Source of the DNA: a virus
Direction: 5' to 3' (one strand)
Virus record (IMG/VR): IMGVR_UViG_3300022929_003923
Span: 1-39,106 of that record
Length of the DNA: 39,106 nucleotides
Shown here one piece after another: positions 30,248 through 39,106 of the stretch (positions are counted from its first letter, which is position 1; every line of letters starts with the position of its first letter). The position numbers and the translations under genes were made by a program. The notes beneath the pieces were generated by a model, which did no database searches, had not been told where the DNA came from, and saw only the letters and a program-made list of their open reading frames with translations.

Positions 30248-31159
30248 TTAGTCATCTTCAGCCAACGCGGCAAAATAACTCATTGTATCTTCTTCATCAG
30301 CATTAGACTTGACTGACACATTAGATGTAGCAGATTTAACAGCAAGCAAGTCTTCAACATCATCATCACCTGATTGAGAAGCGATAGTTTCTGCTGTAGT
30401 AACTCTTGCACCACCAGTAAGAACCTGATTAAGTTTAGCTTTCAACTCATCATAAGTTTTGAAGTTCTTAGGATCAACCATCTCAGCCAGTGAGTGTTGC
30501 TTACCCCAGATTGCTTCAATCTCTTCATCGCTGTTTGCAACAGCACTTGGAGAAGACTCAAATTCAGACTTATCATAGTTACGATATCCCTCAACTTGTC
30601 TTGCCTTCAACTTGAAGTTAGAACCTTCCCAGAAATCAAACGGATTTACTGGAGTTTCATCTTCAAACTCTGGTTGCATGACATCTTTAATCTTATCAAA
30701 GATTTTCTTACCAAACTTGTAAAGCATTACCTGACCTTCATTCTGAGGGTTAGCAGGATCCTTGATTACAAGAATGTTAGCATAGTAAGACAAACGGCGC
30801 TTTTGCTTTCGTGCAATATCTTTGTTTGCTTCTACACCACTGTTCCACAACTCGCTGTTTAGTTCAGACACAGGATCAGGCTGACCCATAGTTGTGAGAG
30901 AATTTTCAATGTACCACTTACCCGTGGGACCTTGAAAGCCATGATTCCACATACGAACCCAAGGAAGTTCTTCTCCTTTAGGGGGAGCAAGAAAACGAAT
31001 GATTGCATATCCATTGCCAGCAGAATCTACTGACAGCTTCCATTCATTGCTATCGTTATTGCCTTGTTGTTTAGGGGAATCGATCTTTTCGACTTCCTTC
31101 ATTAAGTTATCGAAGGAGCCTCTTGCCTTGCGCAAGTCTGAAAGTGAATTAAACGACAT
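30248..31159 (-). CDS. 32: Single-stranded DNA-binding protein gp32 lacking the zinc cysteines
   Basis: A 303-residue protein; T4 gp32 has 301. I use the ATG at 31159, with GGAG 8 nt upstream; the frame is open to 31216 but no ribosome site supports a longer product. The N-terminus MSFNSLSDLRKARGSFDNLMKEVEK is the basic cooperative region (a LAST-like motif). The core WKLSVDSAGNGYAIIRFLAPPKGEELPWVRMWNHGF, in pieces, is the OB fold. The C-terminus is acidic (DDDVEDLL...DEEDTMSYFAALAEDD) for protein contacts. It contains no Cys at all, whereas T4 gp32 holds zinc with His and Cys residues, so the metal subdomain has been lost. A TATAAATA box precedes it in the end of gp59. Confidence 0.9.
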   Translation of the reverse strand: MSFNSLSDLRKARGSFDNLMKEVEKIDSPKQQGNNDSNEWKLSVDSAGNGYAIIRFLAPPKGEELPWVRMWNHGFQGPTGKWYIENSLTTMGQPDPVSELNSELWNSGVEANKDIARKQKRRLSYYANILVIKDPANPQNEGQVMLYKFGKKIFDKIKDVMQPEFEDETPVNPFDFWEGSNFKLKARQVEGYRNYDKSEFESSPSAVANSDEEIEAIWGKQHSLAEMVDPKNFKTYDELKAKLNQVLTGGARVTTAETIASQSGDDDVEDLLAVKSATSNVSVKSNADEEDTMSYFAALAEDD

Positions 31160-31218
31160 ATTTGTTTCTCCGTATAAGCGTTGTATTTTTGTGTATTGTC
31201 CTATATCAGCGGACACTA

Positions 31219-31794
31219 CTATTTATAATGCCTTTCACCAGTGATTCTAATTCTATCACTGATTTGGACAAATGGACGATATTTTTTAATCAACATACTA
31301 GTGTCTTGTAAAAAGATATCATCATTCTCTATAGTAACATAATTGTAGAATTTGTCAAGTACTACAAGCGTTTCTAAAGAAATCATTTTACCAAAATAAA
31401 GCCTAAACACCAATGGGTGTCGGCCTTCTTTGGCTTCAAATGGAGACTGCAATTCTTCCTTCTCCATTTCATAATCTATTTTGGCGATGTCTTGTTCAAA
31501 TTTATATGCAAAAGATTGCCTATTTTTTAGCCACAGAGTATATCTTTCTTTTGCTTCCAAGTCAAACAGACCACCCCACCTATCACCCGAAACAAAATTT
31601 GCGACAAGGAAGTCAATTGCTTCTTTTCGGGTGTAGTCCCTCGCAATTTTTCTGAGACTAGTCAAGTCTTTTCGCTTCATAAATGTTTTTTGACTAGCTC
31701 TAACTGCGCCTTTTGTTTTTGTTATGTCATAATCTTTTTTTGTGAAGTGAAGTTTAAGTGCTAAGTATAAACGATATACTTCAAAAGGTTCCAT
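31219..31794 (-). CDS. 59: Helicase loader gp59
   Basis: A 191-residue protein; T4 gp59 has 217. The N-terminus MEPFEVYRLYLALKLHFTKKDYDITKTKGAV is the conserved HMG-like start of gp59 (F-x-VYRLYLALKxHF), followed by KTFMKRKDLTSLRKIARDY. Middle and end carry VFRLYFGKMISLETLVVLDKF, typical of the second domain. gp59 loads the gp41 helicase on gp32-coated DNA and pauses the polymerase at forks. Its end forms a TATAAATA box (Tyr-Lys-stop) ahead of gp32, and its start overlaps the preceding radical SAM stop (TAATG). Assignment firm. Confidence 0.92.
   Translation of the reverse strand: MEPFEVYRLYLALKLHFTKKDYDITKTKGAVRASQKTFMKRKDLTSLRKIARDYTRKEAIDFLVANFVSGDRWGGLFDLEAKERYTLWLKNRQSFAYKFEQDIAKIDYEMEKEELQSPFEAKEGRHPLVFRLYFGKMISLETLVVLDKFYNYVTIENDDIFLQDTSMLIKKYRPFVQISDRIRITGERHYK
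31220..31227 (-). promoter_or_regulatory. Late-type box TATAAATA at the gp59 stop, upstream of gp32
   Basis: Exact consensus made by the TAT AAA TAG end codons of gp59, 61 nt ahead of the gp32 ATG. It allows late expression of gp32 on its own, in addition to read-through from upstream early/middle transcripts. Confidence 0.55.
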
Positions 31795-32879
31795 TAGTTT
31801 GTCTCGTATCCAACTGCATAATCATAATCGACATAATTCTTTTTACATTTCAGACTACACTCAACCCAAGGGCTGTTCTTCCAACTAGAAAATAGCTTTT
31901 CCCACAAGTCATGGTTCAATACATTTTCTATTGTATTAGTCTTCACTGATAGTTGGTCTCTGTACATTGCAAAGAAACTATCTTTGTAGTTAATTGTCTT
32001 CTCTCCATCACTCATTGCAATGTAAGGAAATGAAGTCCAACTGCAAGGGTGTAATGTACCATCAGCACTCAGATACATTCCTCGATTGCCTACTAGACAT
32101 AACGGAAGAATGTTACCATGTGGCTTCGTTTCATTGTATTTTGTGATATTTGTTTGCATGTAATCATTGATAGGCTGCACTCTATCTGAAATCGGAACTA
32201 CACTTCTTTCATACCTATTTGTTTTGCTTATATACTGCTCATCCGGTTCTAAATGATCGTAGGGTCCATATGTATCATACTTACTTGCAAACTTTGTACT
32301 CTTAGTCCACTGCACAGAATCACATCCATTTATCTGTGCAATATCTTTAATCTTGTTCTGATGCAATTGATTGAATTTGAAATATATTGACGCCCAAACT
32401 ACAAACGCATCGGAATCGTGTCCCATCACAGACATGCCTTGCATGATACTATCCCAATTAGAATTCACACGATACATGTTGTTAGTTTCTTGGTCGTATC
32501 CATCAACACTAAAATTTACTGTATCATATTCATTGAGAATCGTAGCAAGTTCTTCCCACCAAGTCTTTTTCTTATATGAGCCATTTGTAATAATAAAAAT
32601 ATGGCATGTAGGTAATATGTTTTTGATGTATTCGCATATCAACAAGAAATCTTTGCAATAGATAGGGTCACCAATGTCTCCGCAGAAGGTAAACCGCTTG
32701 ACATTTTCTTTTATAAACTGAGGCGTGAATGCTTGGCTGAATTCTTGTAAAGTGAATTCATCATTAGTCCAAGAGGTCGCAGGCAGTTCTGTTCTAGGGC
32801 ATCGTGGACATTTCAATGTACACTTTGCACTGATCTCAATGTGCCAATGATATAGTTGCCAACCATAACGATTATTCAA
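31794..32879 (-). CDS. Radical SAM protein with C-terminal cysteine cluster (SPASM-like)
   Basis: A 361-residue protein with a TTG start at 32879. An AGGAT site lies 6 nt before it, and the TTG overlaps the SDR stop (TTGA). Residues 13-30 (HIEISAKCTLKCPRCPRT) hold the CxxxCxxC [4Fe-4S] site (C20, C24, C27). FTFCGDIGDPI and IFIITNGSY follow as the SAM-binding strands. Near the C-terminus, LPLCLVGNRGMYLSADGTLHPCSW and WVECSLKCKKNYVDYD carry further Cys that could bind auxiliary clusters, as in SPASM proteins. Such enzymes modify peptides or sugars by radical chemistry. It lies between gp59 and SDR in a coupled operon, so its substrate may be made by the neighbouring sugar enzymes. Confidence 0.8.
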   Translation of the reverse strand: MNNRYGWQLYHWHIEISAKCTLKCPRCPRTELPATSWTNDEFTLQEFSQAFTPQFIKENVKRFTFCGDIGDPIYCKDFLLICEYIKNILPTCHIFIITNGSYKKKTWWEELATILNEYDTVNFSVDGYDQETNNMYRVNSNWDSIMQGMSVMGHDSDAFVVWASIYFKFNQLHQNKIKDIAQINGCDSVQWTKSTKFASKYDTYGPYDHLEPDEQYISKTNRYERSVVPISDRVQPINDYMQTNITKYNETKPHGNILPLCLVGNRGMYLSADGTLHPCSWTSFPYIAMSDGEKTINYKDSFFAMYRDQLSVKTNTIENVLNHDLWEKLFSSWKNSPWVECSLKCKKNYVDYDYAVGYETN

Positions 32880-33472
32880 GGTGCTATCCTAATTCTCTTG
32901 TTCTCACTAAAAATAAACTCTGCAATCATACTAGCAACCTCTTCAGGAACTAGATGATCCATTGCATACAAGTCATCCATTGGCTTGTGTTTTTCTTTGT
33001 GTCTATTTGCATTGAAGTTTGTTTTGGTTAGTCCTAAAATAACTTCTTTAACTGTAACGCTTGGGTGTTCATATCTTAACATATCACCGAAAATTTGTAA
33101 AGCCTTTTTACTGAGACTATATGCCAAATCACCCGGATAGAATTTTTCTACATTTGTACTTGTGATATTAACAACAGTGACATTTTCGTTTTCTTGTATT
33201 GCTAATTGTGAGAGTCGCATTGCACTAATCAAGTTAGTGTTTAGTACTCTGCTCCAGTAGCTCCAGTGCATCTCACTGAAAGGAACTTTACCTCCGACAT
33301 CATGTCCAGCGCAATTTATTAACATATCAACTTTACCGAATGAGCGTATTCTCTCAGGAAAATCTAAGTCAATAATATCTCGGGTGAGTTGAATTAGTTG
33401 GTGTTCGTGTTTTAGTATTTTAACTAATTCTTTTCCCACACCACTTGAACATCCTGTAATAGCAATAATCAA
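32876..33472 (-). CDS. Short-chain dehydrogenase/reductase (SDR)
   Basis: A 198-residue protein. It starts with a TTG at 33472, which overlaps the gp33 stop (TTGA); no ATG exists in frame ahead of the essential N-terminal strand. It has the classical SDR signature: TGCSSGVG (residues 6-13) for NAD(P), NCAG (53-56), Ser in NITST (about 105), and Y118-x-x-x-K122 (AYSLSKKAL). At 198 residues it is short for the family (about 250), ending soon after the active site. It probably oxidises or reduces a sugar or cofactor intermediate. Coupled to radical SAM downstream and gp33 upstream. Confidence 0.85.
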   Translation of the reverse strand: MIIAITGCSSGVGKELVKILKHEHQLIQLTRDIIDLDFPERIRSFGKVDMLINCAGHDVGGKVPFSEMHWSYWSRVLNTNLISAMRLSQLAIQENENVTVVNITSTNVEKFYPGDLAYSLSKKALQIFGDMLRYEHPSVTVKEVILGLTKTNFNANRHKEKHKPMDDLYAMDHLVPEEVASMIAEFIFSENKRIRIAP

Positions 33473-33759
33473 AACGGCAACTTCACTGTTTTTTCTTTCA
33501 TTAGATTTAAGTCTTCTGCCTCGACTTTAATTTTTTCTTTAAGTGAGGGAGTGACCAGTTTCTTAACTGACTCGATTTCTATTTCCTGTTTCACACAATA
33601 CTCTACTAATATATCGATTAAGCTAGAATCAGTCCTACTAGCTAACTTTTCGATATATTGAGAAAACTCTACTTGAGTTTTAAATTGTTTAGTAATTAGA
33701 AAAACATCCGTTACAGTGGATCTGTCTTCCATATCGTTGTCAACTACTAGTTTGGGCAT
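33469..33759 (-). CDS. 33: Late transcription co-activator gp33
   Basis: A 96-residue protein; T4 gp33 has 112. VTDVFLITKQFKTQVEFSQYIEKLASRTDSSLIDILVEYCVKQEIEIESVKKLVTPSLKEKIKVEAEDLNLM (in pieces) has the gp33 pattern: helices that bind the RNA polymerase beta flap, and an SLIDAxxxYCxxxxIExExV core. gp33 links RNA polymerase, with gp55, to the sliding clamp so that TATAAATA promoters are activated. The start overlaps the epimerase end by 20 bp, and no strong ribosome site is visible, so it is probably translationally coupled. In T4 gp33 and gp59 are neighbours; here two metabolic genes separate them. Confidence 0.85.
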   Translation of the reverse strand: MPKLVVDNDMEDRSTVTDVFLITKQFKTQVEFSQYIEKLASRTDSSLIDILVEYCVKQEIEIESVKKLVTPSLKEKIKVEAEDLNLMKEKTVKLPF

Positions 33760-34612
33760 AATTAAGTTTCCACTGTTTAATATAATTTATCACATCAAAT
33801 TTACCTTCTACAAAGGGTGTTTTACAAATAGTTTTTTCTGCTTCACCAAGACGATCAAATTCGTGTATGAATGGATGGTCAAATGCTTCAGCGATTTGTA
33901 ATATAGATTTAGGATCGCCTTTGCCTAGATGAATGTTTTTAGGTCTTTTCGCGGGTATTGTAAGAAGTAACTTTACGATACCCGCTATTGCATCACTCAC
34001 AAAAGTGAAGTCTCTTTCTTTTCTTCCGCTTCCATATATACGAAGCGGTTCTCCTTTTAACACCTGATTTTTAAAACTTCTAATCACGGTGCTGTGTTGT
34101 CCATAGTCAGCCTCTCTGGGCCCGTAGATGTTATAAAAATATAACAAGTGTGATTGTACACCCCAAAGTTTATTGTAGAGAGTTAAATTCTCCTCTGCAA
34201 TAGTTTTGCCAAATGTATATGGATTTGAATATGGTGAAGAGTGTAGCCTACTAGAAGTTTGAGCAAAATAAAGCGGACACTTATATTCTCTAGCCCACTC
34301 ACACACAGCCACAGTAGGAACAATATTATTTAAAATTGCATCTCTAGGCTCTTCCATAGAAAGTCTGACTCTAGGGGTATTAGCTAAGTGTATGATGCCA
34401 TCAACTGGCATGAGTCCGCCGTGAATTCCAACAGTATCTAGAATAACATCTTCAACCGCACAATGCATATACTGAACATACGGACTATCTACAATGTATG
34501 TTCCGTTTCTTTTATCATCAACAACGGTAACACAGCATTCAATTGTTGCCAGTGCCTCAACTAAATGTGAGCCGATAAACCCGCAGCCGCCGGTTACAAT
34601 ATAATGATTCAT
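33740..34612 (-). CDS. NAD-dependent epimerase/dehydratase
   Basis: A 290-residue protein with the ATG at 34612, one base after the SleB stop; the frame is open upstream but that part lies inside the SleB gene. TGGCGFIG (residues 7-14) is the NAD-binding loop of extended SDRs. The catalytic Y132-x-x-x-K136 is in NPYTFGKTIAEE, with S/T at 119-121. YNIYGPRE is the sugar-nucleotide-binding motif and YGSGRKERDFTFVSDAIAGI is the usual NDP-sugar C-terminal segment. It probably converts a nucleotide sugar, for example by 4-epimerisation, 4,6-dehydration or decarboxylation. It lies upstream of gp33 in the same operon. Family firm, substrate unknown. Confidence 0.85.
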   Translation of the reverse strand: MNHYIVTGGCGFIGSHLVEALATIECCVTVVDDKRNGTYIVDSPYVQYMHCAVEDVILDTVGIHGGLMPVDGIIHLANTPRVRLSMEEPRDAILNNIVPTVAVCEWAREYKCPLYFAQTSSRLHSSPYSNPYTFGKTIAEENLTLYNKLWGVQSHLLYFYNIYGPREADYGQHSTVIRSFKNQVLKGEPLRIYGSGRKERDFTFVSDAIAGIVKLLLTIPAKRPKNIHLGKGDPKSILQIAEAFDHPFIHEFDRLGEAEKTICKTPFVEGKFDVINYIKQWKLNYAQTSS

Positions 34613-34613
34613 T

Positions 34614-35189
34614 TCAATAATCTTTATAAAAAATGTGTGTGTCCGCAACACCCACCATTGTCATTTGACTAGACCAAGCAGGAGAAACATAATTTGCATG
34701 ATAGTGTGTTGCACCATCTGTGCTATCTATTTGTTCATTATACATGTATTCAGCAAGAGTGTAAATATCTTTATATGCATTATGGTCATATACTTTATCG
34801 GGTTTTCCATCACAGTACCAACTAAATTGACATTTATTTCTTACAGGAACATCTTTGTTGTGATTTTCTTTCCACCACCTTGAATATTTTGCTTGATGTA
34901 CAACTTCACATATAGTGTTAGGGAATTTATTGGATTTTACTCTGTTCAGAGTAACACTTGCAACCGCGGTTTGACCTGTAATGCTCTCACTTCTAGCCTC
35001 AAAATAAATATTTCTTGCTAAACAGATTATTTCACTTTCCAGAGCAATAGGGTTTGATTCAACGATTACAACAGGAGTTAGTTCTAATTCAACTTCAATT
35101 GTCTTAACATCATTAGGTTCCTTTTCAAACAAACTGGTGCCTGCTATCAACCCTAATGTTAAAGTTAGTATGTATGAAATAATTCTCAT
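34614..35189 (-). CDS. SleB-type cell-wall hydrolase with N-terminal membrane anchor
   Basis: A 191-residue protein with an AGGAGG ribosome site right before the ATG at 35189. The first 20 residues (MRIISYILTLTLGLIAGTSL) form a signal/anchor segment. From residue 50 the Hydrolase_2/SleB domain follows: CLARNIYFEARSESITGQTAVASVTLNRVK (E64 is the likely catalytic Glu, in the EAR-x-E motif), NTICEVVHQ, and QFSWYCDGKPD. These enzymes cleave peptidoglycan glycan strands. It probably acts as the phage endolysin after secretion across the inner membrane, which suits a tail spike that lacks a lysozyme domain. It is the start of the operon that continues with epimerase and gp33. Confidence 0.8.
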   Translation of the reverse strand: MRIISYILTLTLGLIAGTSLFEKEPNDVKTIEVELELTPVVIVESNPIALESEIICLARNIYFEARSESITGQTAVASVTLNRVKSNKFPNTICEVVHQAKYSRWWKENHNKDVPVRNKCQFSWYCDGKPDKVYDHNAYKDIYTLAEYMYNEQIDSTDGATHYHANYVSPAWSSQMTMVGVADTHIFYKDY

Positions 35190-35245: not shown

Positions 35246-35476
35246 TTAGTGTTTACCACCAGAATTACTTACAAAAGAATTCATTTGGTTACATAACCGC
35301 TGAGTATCCTCAAAAGTAGGATATTCGGGTAAGGTAGGATACTCAATCGACTCACCGGCATCTTTCAATGCCATGTATTTGTCTATGAGTTGTTCTTTCT
35401 TTGCGTGATACTCTTCTACGAGCATTAACTTTGCTTCCATAAGCATGTTGAATCTTAGTTCATATGGATTTGACAT
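35246..35476 (-). CDS. Small conserved protein of unknown function
   Basis: A 76-residue protein; the ATG at 35476 has an AAGGAGA site, while the open frame extends ten codons further with no better start. MSNPYELRFNMLMEAKLMLVEEYHAKKEQLIDKYMALKDAGESIEYPTLPEYPTFEDTQRLCNQMNSF (in pieces) is a helical protein ending in His-rich NSGGKH. I recognise this N-terminus (NPYELRFNMLxEAKxML) as a small protein widespread in T4-like marine phages without known function; it may bind nucleic acid or protein. It lies between the tmRNA and the SleB gene and is probably on the same strand unit, though the tmRNA terminator stands between. Confidence 0.6.
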   Translation of the reverse strand: MSNPYELRFNMLMEAKLMLVEEYHAKKEQLIDKYMALKDAGESIEYPTLPEYPTFEDTQRLCNQMNSFVSNSGGKH

Positions 35477-35504
35477 AACTATCTCCTTGTGTGTGTTGTG
35501 TGTC

Positions 35505-35540
35505 AAAAATGGGTCCGTTTGATAACAAGGTGGAACCCAT
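35505..35540 (-). terminator. Hairpin and U-run ending the tmRNA coding piece
   Basis: On the minus strand ATGGGT-T-CC (35540-35532) pairs with GGACCCAT (35516-35509), leaving one bulged T, with a loop of about 15 nt and then TTTTT (35509-35505). It reads as an intrinsic terminator that also gives the 3' end of the coding piece. Confidence 0.65.
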
Positions 35541-35543
35541 ACC
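35527..35543 (-). repeat. 17-nt repeat copy B within the tmRNA 3' hairpin
   Basis: Minus-strand GGTATGGGTTCCACCTT, 15 of 17 identical to copy A at 35218-35234. It spans the 5' arm and loop of the tmRNA terminator hairpin. Confidence 0.55.
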
Positions 35544-35553
35544 CCGTCTAACC

Positions 35554-35586
35554 TTAAGCGGCTAGAGCGTATGCCTCATCGTTGGC
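35554..35586 (-). other. tmRNA tag reading frame ANDEAYALAA
   Basis: Codons GCC AAC GAT GAG GCA TAC GCT CTA GCC GCT TAA. The bases just before the resume GCC are TAATAACT, close to the AGTAACT of the E. coli tmRNA. The tag differs from the E. coli ANDENYALAA at one residue (Ala for Asn) and keeps the LAA end that ClpXP-type proteases recognise. Confidence 0.9.
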
Positions 35587-35662
35587 AGTTATTACATGGC
35601 ACTTTGCCAGTCAATCAGTCTCCACTTGTCCTATACAATCGCAGTCGAACCTGTTCAGCCCC

Positions 35663-35745
35663 ATCATAAACGAACTCTTAAATTTAGGAGTCTATCTCTA
35701 AATACAACCCAACACTAGACCCATGTAAGATTGCGAGTTCGTTTA
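35663..35745 (-). other. tmRNA intervening segment with 11-bp inverted repeat
   Basis: After CCA at 35746 comes TAAACGAACTC (35745-35735); its complement GAGTTCGTTTA (35677-35667) precedes TGAT and the mature 5' G at 35662. The 57-nt loop between them is excised. The stem extends the acceptor stem of the precursor, with ACCA opposite TGAT as an internal loop, a form that RNase P and other tRNA-processing enzymes could cut. Confidence 0.8.
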
Positions 35746-35817
35746 TGGTGGAGCTGGGGGGAATCGCACCCCCGTCCTACAATCTTTCAGTCCGCTTCAT
35801 CAACTGATACAGTATAT

Positions 35818-35846
35818 ATATTAACTCATGTGCAGGCATTTGTCAA
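35818..35846 (-). promoter_or_regulatory. Sigma-70-like promoter for the tmRNA
   Basis: Minus-strand TTGACA (35846-35841), exact -35, spacing of 17 nt, then TAATAT (35823-35818), a 4/6 match to TATAAT. Transcription would start near 35811, just before the acceptor piece. The -35 overlaps the stop codon of the upstream radical SAM gene. It is the only strong host-type promoter I notice here, implying expression by unmodified host polymerase early in infection. Confidence 0.65.
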
Positions 35847-36871
35847 CCACATCCTGCACAGTTTTGGTAACATACATCCATATCCCATTTGAGTACTTCA
35901 TCAAGTATACCCGTGTTCATTATTTCTTCAGGTGTGTGATGTAATAGGCTGTTAAAGTTCCTATCTAACCCTCGCTCTACATAAAAGCGTCTAATCCAAT
36001 CATTCATTTGTCCTATCTTGTATCCTAAATCAACTTCATTAGGAATGAAACAACAGGGCCAAAGTTTTTTATCAGCAGAGAGATATATGTTGTGTAAATG
36101 ATTTTCTTTGTTGATTGCATGGCATTTTATCTTACCTTCTTTTTTGACTAACATGTCTTCCCACAAAGACATATCTTTAGAAGCGACAGAGGGATTATGA
36201 AACCAATTACCTAAATCATCAGATTCATTGATGCCTATAGGAACTCCTGGAGCTGGTTCTAATCTGTACCCGCCGTCTGATACAATCAGGTCTTTAAATA
36301 CAAATCTTTCTGAGTTTCTATGTTTGAATTCTTTAAACCCATACTCCTCTGACATTTTTTTAGCCGCGGCAAGTTGATTATAATTATGACGAAATAGTGT
36401 CATATACCATATCGCTTTACCGCCTGCTTCAATATAGGCTTTAGCATTTTTCAAAACAACATCAAGCCGTGTTTTTCTTCTATACATTTCGTGGCTTTTT
36501 TGGTCAATACCTTCTATGGCGAATTCTACAGATACATTTTTTTGTGTGCCTAGCCATGACCAAAAAGTTCTGTGCAAGCCGGCTCCGTTTGTGCTTATGA
36601 GGGTATGGATATGTTTATCCGTCAAAACCTTAATAAATTCTTTTGGTTGTGAATGCATCACTATATCCCCATAGTTGCCGTTAATATGTGTGGCAACAAT
36701 ATTACTGCACCAAGGAGAATTTACAAAATTTCTTAATTCTTCCGCTGACCACTGATCTATTACAAGATGCGGATCCGTCTCAAGTGTAGTATCGTATGTT
36801 CTAGGACACTGTGGACATCTGGCATTACACTCAGAAGTGGGTTCTATCGTTAAAAAGTTTGGCTTTTTCAT
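35843..36871 (-). CDS. Radical SAM protein (second), SPASM-like C-terminus
   Basis: A 342-residue protein with an ATG at 36871 overlapping the exonuclease stop (ATGA). ECNARCPQCPRT has the CxxxCxxC cluster (C15, C19, C22), and LISTNGAGL is the SAM-binding strand. HAINKENHLHNIYLSADKKLWPCCFIP and the terminal DMDVCYQNCAGCG provide auxiliary-cluster cysteines, as in SPASM/twitch proteins. It is similar in plan to the radical SAM at 31794-32879 but diverged; the shared start, xxIExTxxCNxxCPxCPRT, suggests a common family. Such enzymes cross-link or modify peptides or cofactors. It immediately precedes the tmRNA in reading direction. Confidence 0.82.
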   Translation of the reverse strand: MKKPNFLTIEPTSECNARCPQCPRTYDTTLETDPHLVIDQWSAEELRNFVNSPWCSNIVATHINGNYGDIVMHSQPKEFIKVLTDKHIHTLISTNGAGLHRTFWSWLGTQKNVSVEFAIEGIDQKSHEMYRRKTRLDVVLKNAKAYIEAGGKAIWYMTLFRHNYNQLAAAKKMSEEYGFKEFKHRNSERFVFKDLIVSDGGYRLEPAPGVPIGINESDDLGNWFHNPSVASKDMSLWEDMLVKKEGKIKCHAINKENHLHNIYLSADKKLWPCCFIPNEVDLGYKIGQMNDWIRRFYVERGLDRNFNSLLHHTPEEIMNTGILDEVLKWDMDVCYQNCAGCG

Positions 36872-37527
36872 TTGTGGTCACCTTCATACAAGTCTCTTGC
36901 ATGTAACAAATGATGCACATAGTTATCTCTTCTGTCAATAAAGATTTGAGGCTCTTCATCTTCTACTGCAATAAGAATGACAGACCTGTTAATAGGGGTT
37001 CCTGTTCTTTCTTCATACATGATAGAATATGCAGCCGCTTGTGCAAAGTAGTTATCAATCCATTCTTTCTTTTTAGGTTTTCTAGATGTTTTAAAATCTA
37101 TGATGGAGAGTTTACCATCAAACTCTGCAATACAATCTACTCTTCCCGCTAGTCTCAGGTGGTCGCTGTACAAAGCAATCTCCTGCGCATGAATATTATC
37201 TATTCGGGAAAGGACTGGTTTAAACGAATTCCACATAGCTAAATCCAGCATAGAAAGTTTGCTGATATCAACTTCTTCATTGTCTATATAATTTTCGCAC
37301 AAAAGGTGAATTTTTGTGCCGCGGGTAGATGCTTGGCGACTGATCTTATTGGCTTCTTCTTCACCAACTCTCTTTCGCCATTGCATAATAGAATCTCTGG
37401 TTTGGTAACCCAAAACAGTAGTTACAGAGGGGTAGGCCGCTCCAGACTCAGTAAAGTATTTTCTACTGCCATCTGGAGCGGTTTTGTCACTCGCAAAGTC
37501 TTTCAGTTCTTTTACATGTTTAAACAT
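36868..37527 (-). CDS. PD-(D/E)XK exonuclease, MGME1/RecB-like
   Basis: A 219-residue protein. The core is present: RGTKIHLLCENYI near residues 70-81, then LRLAGRVDCIAEFDGKLSIIDFKTSRKP with D131 in the GRVD motif and D144-x-K146, followed by FAQAAAYSIMYEE carrying the Q163-x-x-x-Y167 motif. This combination marks the RecB/Cas4/MGME1 branch of PD-(D/E)XK nucleases and occurs in T4-like marine phages. It probably degrades or processes DNA ends in replication, recombination or host DNA turnover. N-terminal SYPSVTTVLG-like strands (AAYPSVTTVLGYQT) are shared with mitochondrial MGME1. It is coupled to the second radical SAM by an ATGA overlap. Confidence 0.82.
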   Translation of the reverse strand: MFKHVKELKDFASDKTAPDGSRKYFTESGAAYPSVTTVLGYQTRDSIMQWRKRVGEEEANKISRQASTRGTKIHLLCENYIDNEEVDISKLSMLDLAMWNSFKPVLSRIDNIHAQEIALYSDHLRLAGRVDCIAEFDGKLSIIDFKTSRKPKKKEWIDNYFAQAAAYSIMYEERTGTPINRSVILIAVEDEEPQIFIDRRDNYVHHLLHARDLYEGDHK

Positions 37528-37569: not shown

Positions 37570-38328
37570 TCAAGAGTATTGGTCTTCATATTGCATTCTA
37601 GCCAACAAATATTCCTTTACAATGTCAGACCTGACGATATCATCAATACCAAACTCAATTATGTTGAAGGATTTCATCATGTCTGCAATGACCATAAATT
37701 TCTGTAGACCTGACATATCGTTTCTATTTTTGTACAGATCAGACTGCCTAAAATCTCCGCAGAAAATTACCTTACTGTCAGTACCAATTCTGGTCATGAT
37801 AGAATTGAGTTCCATATCATTCATATTCTGACATTCATCTACTAATACAATTGCGTTATCAAGGGTTATTCCTCTTACAAAGGATGTAATCATCCACTGT
37901 AAAGACTTACCTTCTTGCAATCGATGAAACGGGTTTTGTTTGCCGGGAAAAAGATCCTCAACCATACTTATATATGGTTGCATATAAACTTCAGTTTTTT
38001 CTGCTTGGTCTCCAGGAAGGTGACCGATATCTCGGGAAGGGACTGCTGACCTACATATGATTACTTTTCTGTAGGGGTTTCCGGGGTCAAGCACTTCTTC
38101 TAGTGCTTTATATAGTGCGATGTATGTCTTTCCGGTGCCTGCCGCACCGTGTAGTAAAAATGCTGATCCCTTTTTATACTGCTGAAAGAAAATAGACTGC
38201 ATTTCTGTCATAGGGTCAATTACTACTAAATCATCAATTCTAAGTTTGCATCCTCCGCTTTTTTTGTTAATGTTTGCTGGTTGTGAGTCATCGTGTACAA
38301 TCTGAAGATTCGACTTCCGCTTAGGCAT
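37570..38328 (-). CDS. phoH: PhoH-like P-loop ATPase
   Basis: A 252-residue protein with an AAAAGGG site ahead of the ATG at 38328. The Walker A GAAGTGKT is at residues 61-68 and the Walker B VLVDECQN at 161-168, followed by a sensor-like region TRIGTDSKVIFCGDFRQSDL. This is the PhoH ATPase/helicase-like domain, which is very common in marine myoviruses and may act in RNA or phosphate-stress metabolism; its biochemical role in phage is unsettled. It lies between the exonuclease and a small unknown gene. No Pho box is obvious. Confidence 0.92.
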   Translation of the reverse strand: MPKRKSNLQIVHDDSQPANINKKSGGCKLRIDDLVVIDPMTEMQSIFFQQYKKGSAFLLHGAAGTGKTYIALYKALEEVLDPGNPYRKVIICRSAVPSRDIGHLPGDQAEKTEVYMQPYISMVEDLFPGKQNPFHRLQEGKSLQWMITSFVRGITLDNAIVLVDECQNMNDMELNSIMTRIGTDSKVIFCGDFRQSDLYKNRNDMSGLQKFMVIADMMKSFNIIEFGIDDIVRSDIVKEYLLARMQYEDQYS

Positions 38329-38376: not shown

Positions 38377-38673
38377 CTAAGACAGTTTCTCCTTTGGTGA
38401 GTGAATTGGTTCGATACTTGCTATTATCTTATTTATAACTCTCTTTGCTTCATCCGACAATAATCCGCTACGATATCCTCTCTCTAAACTAAGCAAGACA
38501 TACTCAGAAGATAAAGTTCTAAGTGAGTTCATGCTTACTTTATAGGTAACATCACCCCAGATATTCACGCAGAAAAGAGCCATCTCAACCTCTTGTTCAG
38601 TATAGAGATTGATCTTAAAGCCATTTGTAGCAGTCCTAATATACTGCTTTGGAAAATTTACAATGTTATTCAT
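38377..38673 (-). CDS. Small conserved protein of unknown function
   Basis: A 98-residue protein with the ATG at 38673. Sequence MNNIVNFPKQYIRTATNGFKINLYTEQEVEMALFCVNIWGDVTYKVSMNSLRTLSSEYVLLSLERGYRSGLLSDEAKRVINKI (in pieces) is mixed alpha/beta with a helical C-terminal half. I see no family motif. An AATAAATA box (38679-38686) precedes it. It sits between PhoH and a carbamoyltransferase, so it is probably a T4-like marine phage accessory gene. Real gene judged from a clean frame and spacing; function unknown. Confidence 0.5.
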   Translation of the reverse strand: MNNIVNFPKQYIRTATNGFKINLYTEQEVEMALFCVNIWGDVTYKVSMNSLRTLSSEYVLLSLERGYRSGLLSDEAKRVINKIIASIEPIHSPKEKLS

Positions 38674-38687: not shown

Positions 38688-39106
38688 CTAAAATACTTTC
38701 ACTCTGTATCTATCTTCAAATTGTTTAGCATCTGTCTTGTTATTTACTATTGGCTTACCCTTAATGTTGAGGCTTGTATTCAATAGCATAGGACAGCCGG
38801 TGTGCTTTTTCCATAGCCTCAGGAGCTCATACAAGCCCCTGTGTTGCTCTTTCGTTACTGTCTGCACTCTGCTAGTCCCGTCGATGTGTACAATGGCAGG
38901 GAAGTCCTCTGGCTGCTTGCAGGTCACAATGTATTGCATATACGGCGACTCAAAATCACGGTCTACATTAAAAAATTTGTGTGCATCCTCTTGCAATATA
39001 ACGGGTGCAAACGGTCTAAACTCTTGTCGTTTCTTTATCCTATTTACTACATCTTTCATTTGTTGACCACGAGGGTCAGCAAGAAGACTACGATTGCCCA
39101 ATGCTC
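38688..39106 (-). CDS. NodU-type carbamoyltransferase, C-terminal part (5' end outside window)
   Basis: The frame runs off the right edge; the visible 139 residues read ALGNRSLLADPRGQQMKDVVNRIKKRQEFRPFAPVILQEDAHKFF (in pieces), the signature end of the NodU/CmcH family: ALGNRSILADPR, then KxRExFRPFAPxI. Members transfer a carbamoyl group to sugars or antibiotics. The further PAIVHIDGTSRVQTVT and CPMLLNTSLNIKGKPIV match the C-terminal (YrdC-like ATP/carbamoyl) domain. Together with the glycosyltransferases and FkbM at the other edge, it suggests modification of a surface glycan. Family confident. Confidence 0.85.
   Translation of the reverse strand, partial: ALGNRSLLADPRGQQMKDVVNRIKKRQEFRPFAPVILQEDAHKFFNVDRDFESPYMQYIVTCKQPEDFPAIVHIDGTSRVQTVTKEQHRGLYELLRLWKKHTGCPMLLNTSLNIKGKPIVNNKTDAKQFEDRYRVKVF

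Follow-up and report, generated by a model that had tools for sequence, protein, structure and literature searches.

The tmRNA gene and its neighbours

The window, by which we mean the whole stretch of DNA analysed, is a virus record of 39 kb (39,106 nt) in IMG/VR, obtained from an environmental DNA sample. It contains genes for gp2, gp4, a gp5-like hub, gp32, gp33, gp59 and baseplate proteins, which mark it as T4-like; the functions assigned to its genes include DNA end protection, head closure, the tail tube and PhoH. Cultured phages are distant: a tail protein shows less than 60% identity across all 248 records, those of Melnitz phages included, and BLAST of the tmRNA DNA against cultured phages gave no match. 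The minus strand carries a complete circularly permuted (two-piece) tmRNA gene, which lies among the following genes.

37570..38328, minus strand: PhoH-like gene, conserved upstream neighbour of the tmRNA
36868..37527, minus strand: gene for a PDDEXK exonuclease, a conserved neighbour on the upstream side of permuted tmRNAs in phages
35843..36871, minus strand: radical SAM protein gene (phrog_21308), directly upstream of the tmRNA
34614..35189, minus strand: cell-wall hydrolase (endolysin-like) gene, conserved downstream neighbour
33469..33759, minus strand: gene for a gp33-like late-transcription coactivator, conserved downstream neighbour
31219..31794, minus strand: gene for a gp59-like helicase loader, downstream of the tmRNA
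30248..31216, minus strand: gene for a gp32-like single-strand DNA-binding protein, downstream of the tmRNA

A second radical SAM gene (31794-32879, minus strand) also matches phrog_21308, and the pair flanks the tmRNA-gp33 region. The same strand has genes for the C-terminus of a carbamoyltransferase (38688-39101), a sugar-nucleotide epimerase (33740-34651) and a short-chain dehydrogenase (32876-33472), three functions that suggest the modification of surface sugars or small molecules.

The only gene reported by ARAGORN in the window is a minus-strand tmRNA* (permuted tmRNA) at 35463-35838, with the tag ANDEAYALAA. Two Rfam models matched above their curated cut-offs in cmscan: RF04321 (tmRNA_permuted) with 99.9 bits (cut-off 47, E 1.8e-18, 35808-35554), the match being full-length over all 213 model positions, and RF01850 (beta_tmRNA) with 84.7 bits, barely above its cut-off of 84 (E 3e-24, 35859-35499). 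Among the alpha, beta, cyano and standard models of clan CL00001, beta_tmRNA was retained as the best for the window. A preliminary description, made from the sequence alone, had claimed that a T4-like phage carries a permuted tmRNA in complete form and had named the Rfam covariance models as a means of checking it; ARAGORN, both models and the T4 core genes bear it out. That description associated the permuted order with alphaproteobacteria and some cyanobacteria, and here it was right about the permutation but did not name the best-fitting subtype, which is betaproteobacterial. The parts of the gene are as follows.

35818..35846, minus strand: sigma70-like promoter (TTGACA-17-TAATAT), which stops about 10 nt 5' of the modelled tmRNA start
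35746..35808, minus strand: acceptor piece, the 3' tRNA-like part, made up of the T-arm (its loop is UGCGAUU), the 3' strand of the acceptor stem and an encoded CCA (ARAGORN, Rfam, direct reading)
35663..35745, minus strand: intervening segment of 83 nt; its ends, TAAACGAACTC and GAGTTCGTTTA, lengthen the acceptor helix and show covariation among relatives
35503..35662, minus strand: coding piece, with 5' acceptor strand GGGGCTG (35662-35656), D-loop region AACAGGTTCGAC, tag region and 3' domain; its 3' end is a predicted one
35597..35609, minus strand: hairpin TGGC-AAAGT-GCCA, 10 nt 5' of the resume codon GCC at 35586 (direct reading)
35554..35586, minus strand: tag reading frame GCC...TAA, peptide ANDEAYALAA (ARAGORN, Rfam)
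35509..35547, minus strand: beta-type 3' pseudoknot, with ACGGGGT/ACCTTGT and ATGGGTTC/GGACCCAT pairings (Rfam, direct reading, relatives)

The acceptor piece thus comes first, terminating in CAGCTCCACCA with its CCA at 35746, and is followed by the intervening segment, by GGGGCTG from 35662 and by the tag. In the acceptor stem, GGGGCUG pairs with CAGCUCC at seven of seven positions, including the G3·U70 pair that is the identity element for alanine. Several details of the preliminary description hold on the sequence: the seven pairs with G3.U, the hairpin (35609-35597) ten nucleotides ahead of the resume codon, and a tag differing by a single residue from that of Escherichia coli. The E. coli tag is ANDENYALAA; that of the window is closed by a TAA stop. 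The fold of the RNA was better than those of 100 out of 100 shuffled sequences (z -4.0). The case for a terminator is weaker. A stem of ATGGGTTC and GGACCCAT (35540-35509) is indeed followed by five T's, but it has a 16-nt loop and was missed by a terminator scan; any terminator here is non-standard, and the stem is mainly part of the conserved beta-type 3' pseudoknot.

Conservation of the locus and of the RNA in other phages

Phage tmRNAs have hitherto been regarded as rare curiosities. A two-piece tmRNA has been described in the T4-like phage Melnitz, with 53 two-piece structures counted in phages, mostly aquatic (PMC9004378), and the tmRNA database holds 79 phage sequences (PMC11915505). 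A pattern scan of IMG/VR revealed at least 119 stretches with permuted tmRNA genes. In view of these three sources, the window tmRNA is another example of an already known kind, and the idea that it was a first case has to be given up, particularly since Melnitz has its gene at a matching locus. Methylophilales phage Melnitz (MZ577097.1, gene 86; Kyanoviridae) resembles the window both in its permuted tmRNA and in the succession of PhoH, PDDEXK nuclease, tmRNA, late-transcription coactivator, helicase loader and single-strand DNA-binding protein. It differs in that its tmRNA fits the alpha_tmRNA model (106.7 bits, tag ANDNYVPVDYALAA), whereas the window fits beta_tmRNA, and in having a glutamine riboswitch adjoining the tmRNA (L208, 2198-2246, confirmed with Rfam), whereas the window has none above the cut-off. 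The tmRNA genes of mycobacteriophages and of Bacillus phage G have the one-piece order. They are, like that of the window, tmRNA genes carried by phages (PMC4131195).

What appears to be new here is that the tmRNA belongs to a conserved T4-like locus, in which gene order and strand hardly vary. In a set of 91 distinct phage tmRNAs, wherever the markers were found, PDDEXK (52/52) and PhoH (29/29) lay upstream on the same strand, and gp33 (61/62), gp59 (57/57) and gp32 (45/46) lay downstream on the same strand, giving the order PhoH–PDDEXK–tmRNA–gp33–gp59–gp32. Among contigs with sufficient flank, an upstream marker was detected in 48 of 74 and the downstream pair in 43 of 54, so that a smaller share of the contigs may be set differently or carry markers that have diverged beyond detection. 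Distances between tmRNAs correlated with those between neighbouring genes (r 0.61 for PhoH, 0.38 for gp32, 0.27 for gp59 and 0.14 for PDDEXK; for reference, r was 0.58 between gp59 and gp32). As the tmRNA distances track those of the neighbours, less so for PDDEXK, the tmRNA and its surroundings seem to have come down mainly by common descent, with some exchange.

The nearest distinct copy is 99% identical to the window in the tmRNA core, and seven close contigs that keep the gene have the tag ANDEAYALAA or ANDEAYSLAA. Relatives retain the tRNA-like core, the tag frame and the 3' domain, the pairing of the 3' pseudoknot being maintained despite sequence changes. The intervening segment diverges, yet its ends still pair. 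Of the segment-end cells in 49 distinct phage helices, 95% were paired compared with 74% in swapped controls, and double changes occurred in 109 cells against a control mean of 25 and a maximum of 47 (500 controls); kinship among the sequences inflates such counts, but the gap to the controls is nonetheless large. (In an initial count that included bacterial rows, the segment ends of the latter were near-identical, so the swapped controls were uninformative there.) This strong pairing and covariation of the segment ends also appears to be a new observation.

Promoters

The promoter proposed in the preliminary description can be recognized as TTGACA-17-TAATAT at 35846-35818, although about five promoter-like sites would be expected by chance in such a region. 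The window has these two hexamers with only a degenerate late box, but close relatives carry the T4 late-promoter box, TATAAATA, overlapping their -10 region. The exact box occurs in 21 of 85 distinct upstream stretches, compared with about 1.3% of random stretches, and in 18 of these 21 it lies 40 to 45 nt 5' of the GGAC box; TTGACA is frequent at the matching -35 position. This overlap of a sigma70-like promoter with a late-promoter box seems not to have been noted before. The Melnitz tmRNA was assigned to an early promoter (PMC9004378); the motifs in relatives suggest that both early and late use are possible. Elsewhere on the minus strand of the window there are eight exact TATAAATA boxes (at 38437, 31227, 19947, 14284 and others), several of them immediately 5' of genes, which would fit T4-type late promoters.

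Loop signature and origin of the phage genes

In almost all tRNAs the T-loop has U55. The window has G at this position (UGCGAUU) and a D-loop that is one base short, and its clade shares both features (T-loop UGCRAUU). Both changes were present in 17 of 23 phage copies, in a set collected without any T-loop constraint, and none of the 64 bacterial permuted tmRNAs sampled combined the two. A strict genome pattern using the window D-loop had no bacterial match. Bacterial alpha copies have G55 too, but in a loop GGCRGUA and with a longer D-loop. Phage copies with alpha-like and with beta-like 3' ends both show the combination. A test for correlated change between G55 and D-loop length lacked enough independent pairs to reach significance and could not separate the association from descent. 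Because of these two changes, the charging of the window RNA, or its fit to SmpB, may differ.

The nearest bacterial counterparts, the RF01850 tmRNAs of Rhodocyclaceae and relatives, share with the window the permuted order, the pseudoknot sequence CCUUGUUAYCAAA and the tag start ANDE. However, two of them score 263 and 293 bits against the 84.7 of the window, their T-loop is UUCGAYU, their D-loop is one base longer and their tags are mostly ANDERFALAA or ANDERFAIAA. With RF04321 the window again scores lower than the bacterial beta genes (99.9 bits compared with 135-172), and no feature excludes it. In a maximum-likelihood tree (a short alignment of 190 columns, unrooted, covering phage, bacterial alpha and bacterial beta copies), the window fell in a phage-only group of 16 rows (support 100/96), while the bacterial beta rows made up a set of their own. 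We therefore consider the window tmRNA to be beta-like in its 3' domain but outside the bacterial beta lineage, from which its loops and its grouping set it apart.

This tree divides the copies into phage, bacterial alpha and bacterial beta sets with the minimum number of label changes if L221, an alpha-type permuted tmRNA from a genome (G180) filed under Burkholderiales that could reflect contamination or transfer, is counted as alpha. An arrangement with all phage copies on one side and the bacteria on the other gave p-AU 0.36. (An earlier quick tree was dropped in favour of this fuller search, a constrained tree having proved better by 66 log units.) Permuted tmRNAs above the cut-off were present in only nine of 200 Burkholderiales genomes. 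The phage sequences have a bearing on how the permuted form arose in separate bacterial lineages. It is conceivable, if rather unlikely, that the permuted tmRNA is an old, mostly vertical gene of aquatic T4-like phages, kept in a single place next to the late-transcription coactivator gene, and that transfer of the permuted form did not run only from bacteria to phages, these phages having themselves been donors to bacteria, for example to the betaproteobacterial lineage.

Possible role in infection

We think it likely, with a probability of about 0.78, that this is a functional two-piece tmRNA of a T4-like aquatic phage that uses the SmpB, AlaRS and RNases of its host. A precursor would be transcribed from the tmRNA's own promoter, and the ends of the intervening segment would lengthen the acceptor helix; host RNase P and 3' nucleases would cut the segment out, leaving two RNAs joined through the acceptor and long-range helices. 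Charged by host AlaRS through G3·U70, and delivered by host SmpB to a stalled ribosome, the molecule would let translation restart at GCC, append ANDEAYALAA and release the ribosome, the tagged protein passing to ClpXP-type proteases. A search of 15 phage records with a tmRNA, not all of which are complete, found no SmpB gene, and so host SmpB is probably needed. That the RNA serves trans-translation in infection, as initially proposed, is the most likely interpretation, and the benefit to the phage would probably be extra rescue capacity at a time when the mRNAs of both host and phage are undergoing cleavage. The preliminary description had put forward, as possible roles, the rescue of ribosomes stalled by host-mRNA decay or the marking of proteins for degradation.

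Might it instead be a competitor, occupying host SmpB or ribosomes and so blocking or redirecting trans-translation by the host? The tmRNA of phage DS6A extends barely beyond the tRNA-like domain, and tmRNA is inhibited by a molecule of this sort (PMC4131195, PMC11915505); the atypical T-loop and D-loop of the window could be taken in the same sense. Such a role is nevertheless improbable, as relatives keep a full stop-ended tag frame, the context of the resume codon and the 3' pseudoknot, all needless in a decoy. We also find it quite improbable that the main purpose of tagging is the breakdown of host proteins and reuse of their amino acids, as proposed for Melnitz, rather than rescue as such: the tag does end in LAA, a typical protease signal, and the sigma70-like promoter permits early expression, but tagging is bound to stalled ribosomes, with no known route for the selective marking of finished proteins, and several relatives have the late-promoter box.

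Phages often integrate at tmRNA genes, and capture has been proposed for Melnitz (PMC9004378), so the gene might be a host copy acquired not long ago and without function, or a functionless relic, left for instance by imprecise prophage excision. This is very improbable, however, for a gene that has a promoter of its own, sits at a conserved locus and forms covarying helices, in a family whose phage copies stand apart from bacterial ones in the tree and which has no close bacterial copy (a search of 300 Burkholderiales genomes for a host source yielded at best short pieces of less than 50 nt). The conserved locus, the covarying processing helix and the common changes in T-loop and D-loop suggest that the tmRNA is a phage gene long maintained by selection. 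It can now be asked whether a T4-like phage needs a ribosome-rescue RNA of its own, and at what stage of infection.

A variation on the tag was seen in several phage tmRNAs (L007, L102, L050, L075 and L087), in which a short form, ANDKYALAA, is followed by two stop codons.
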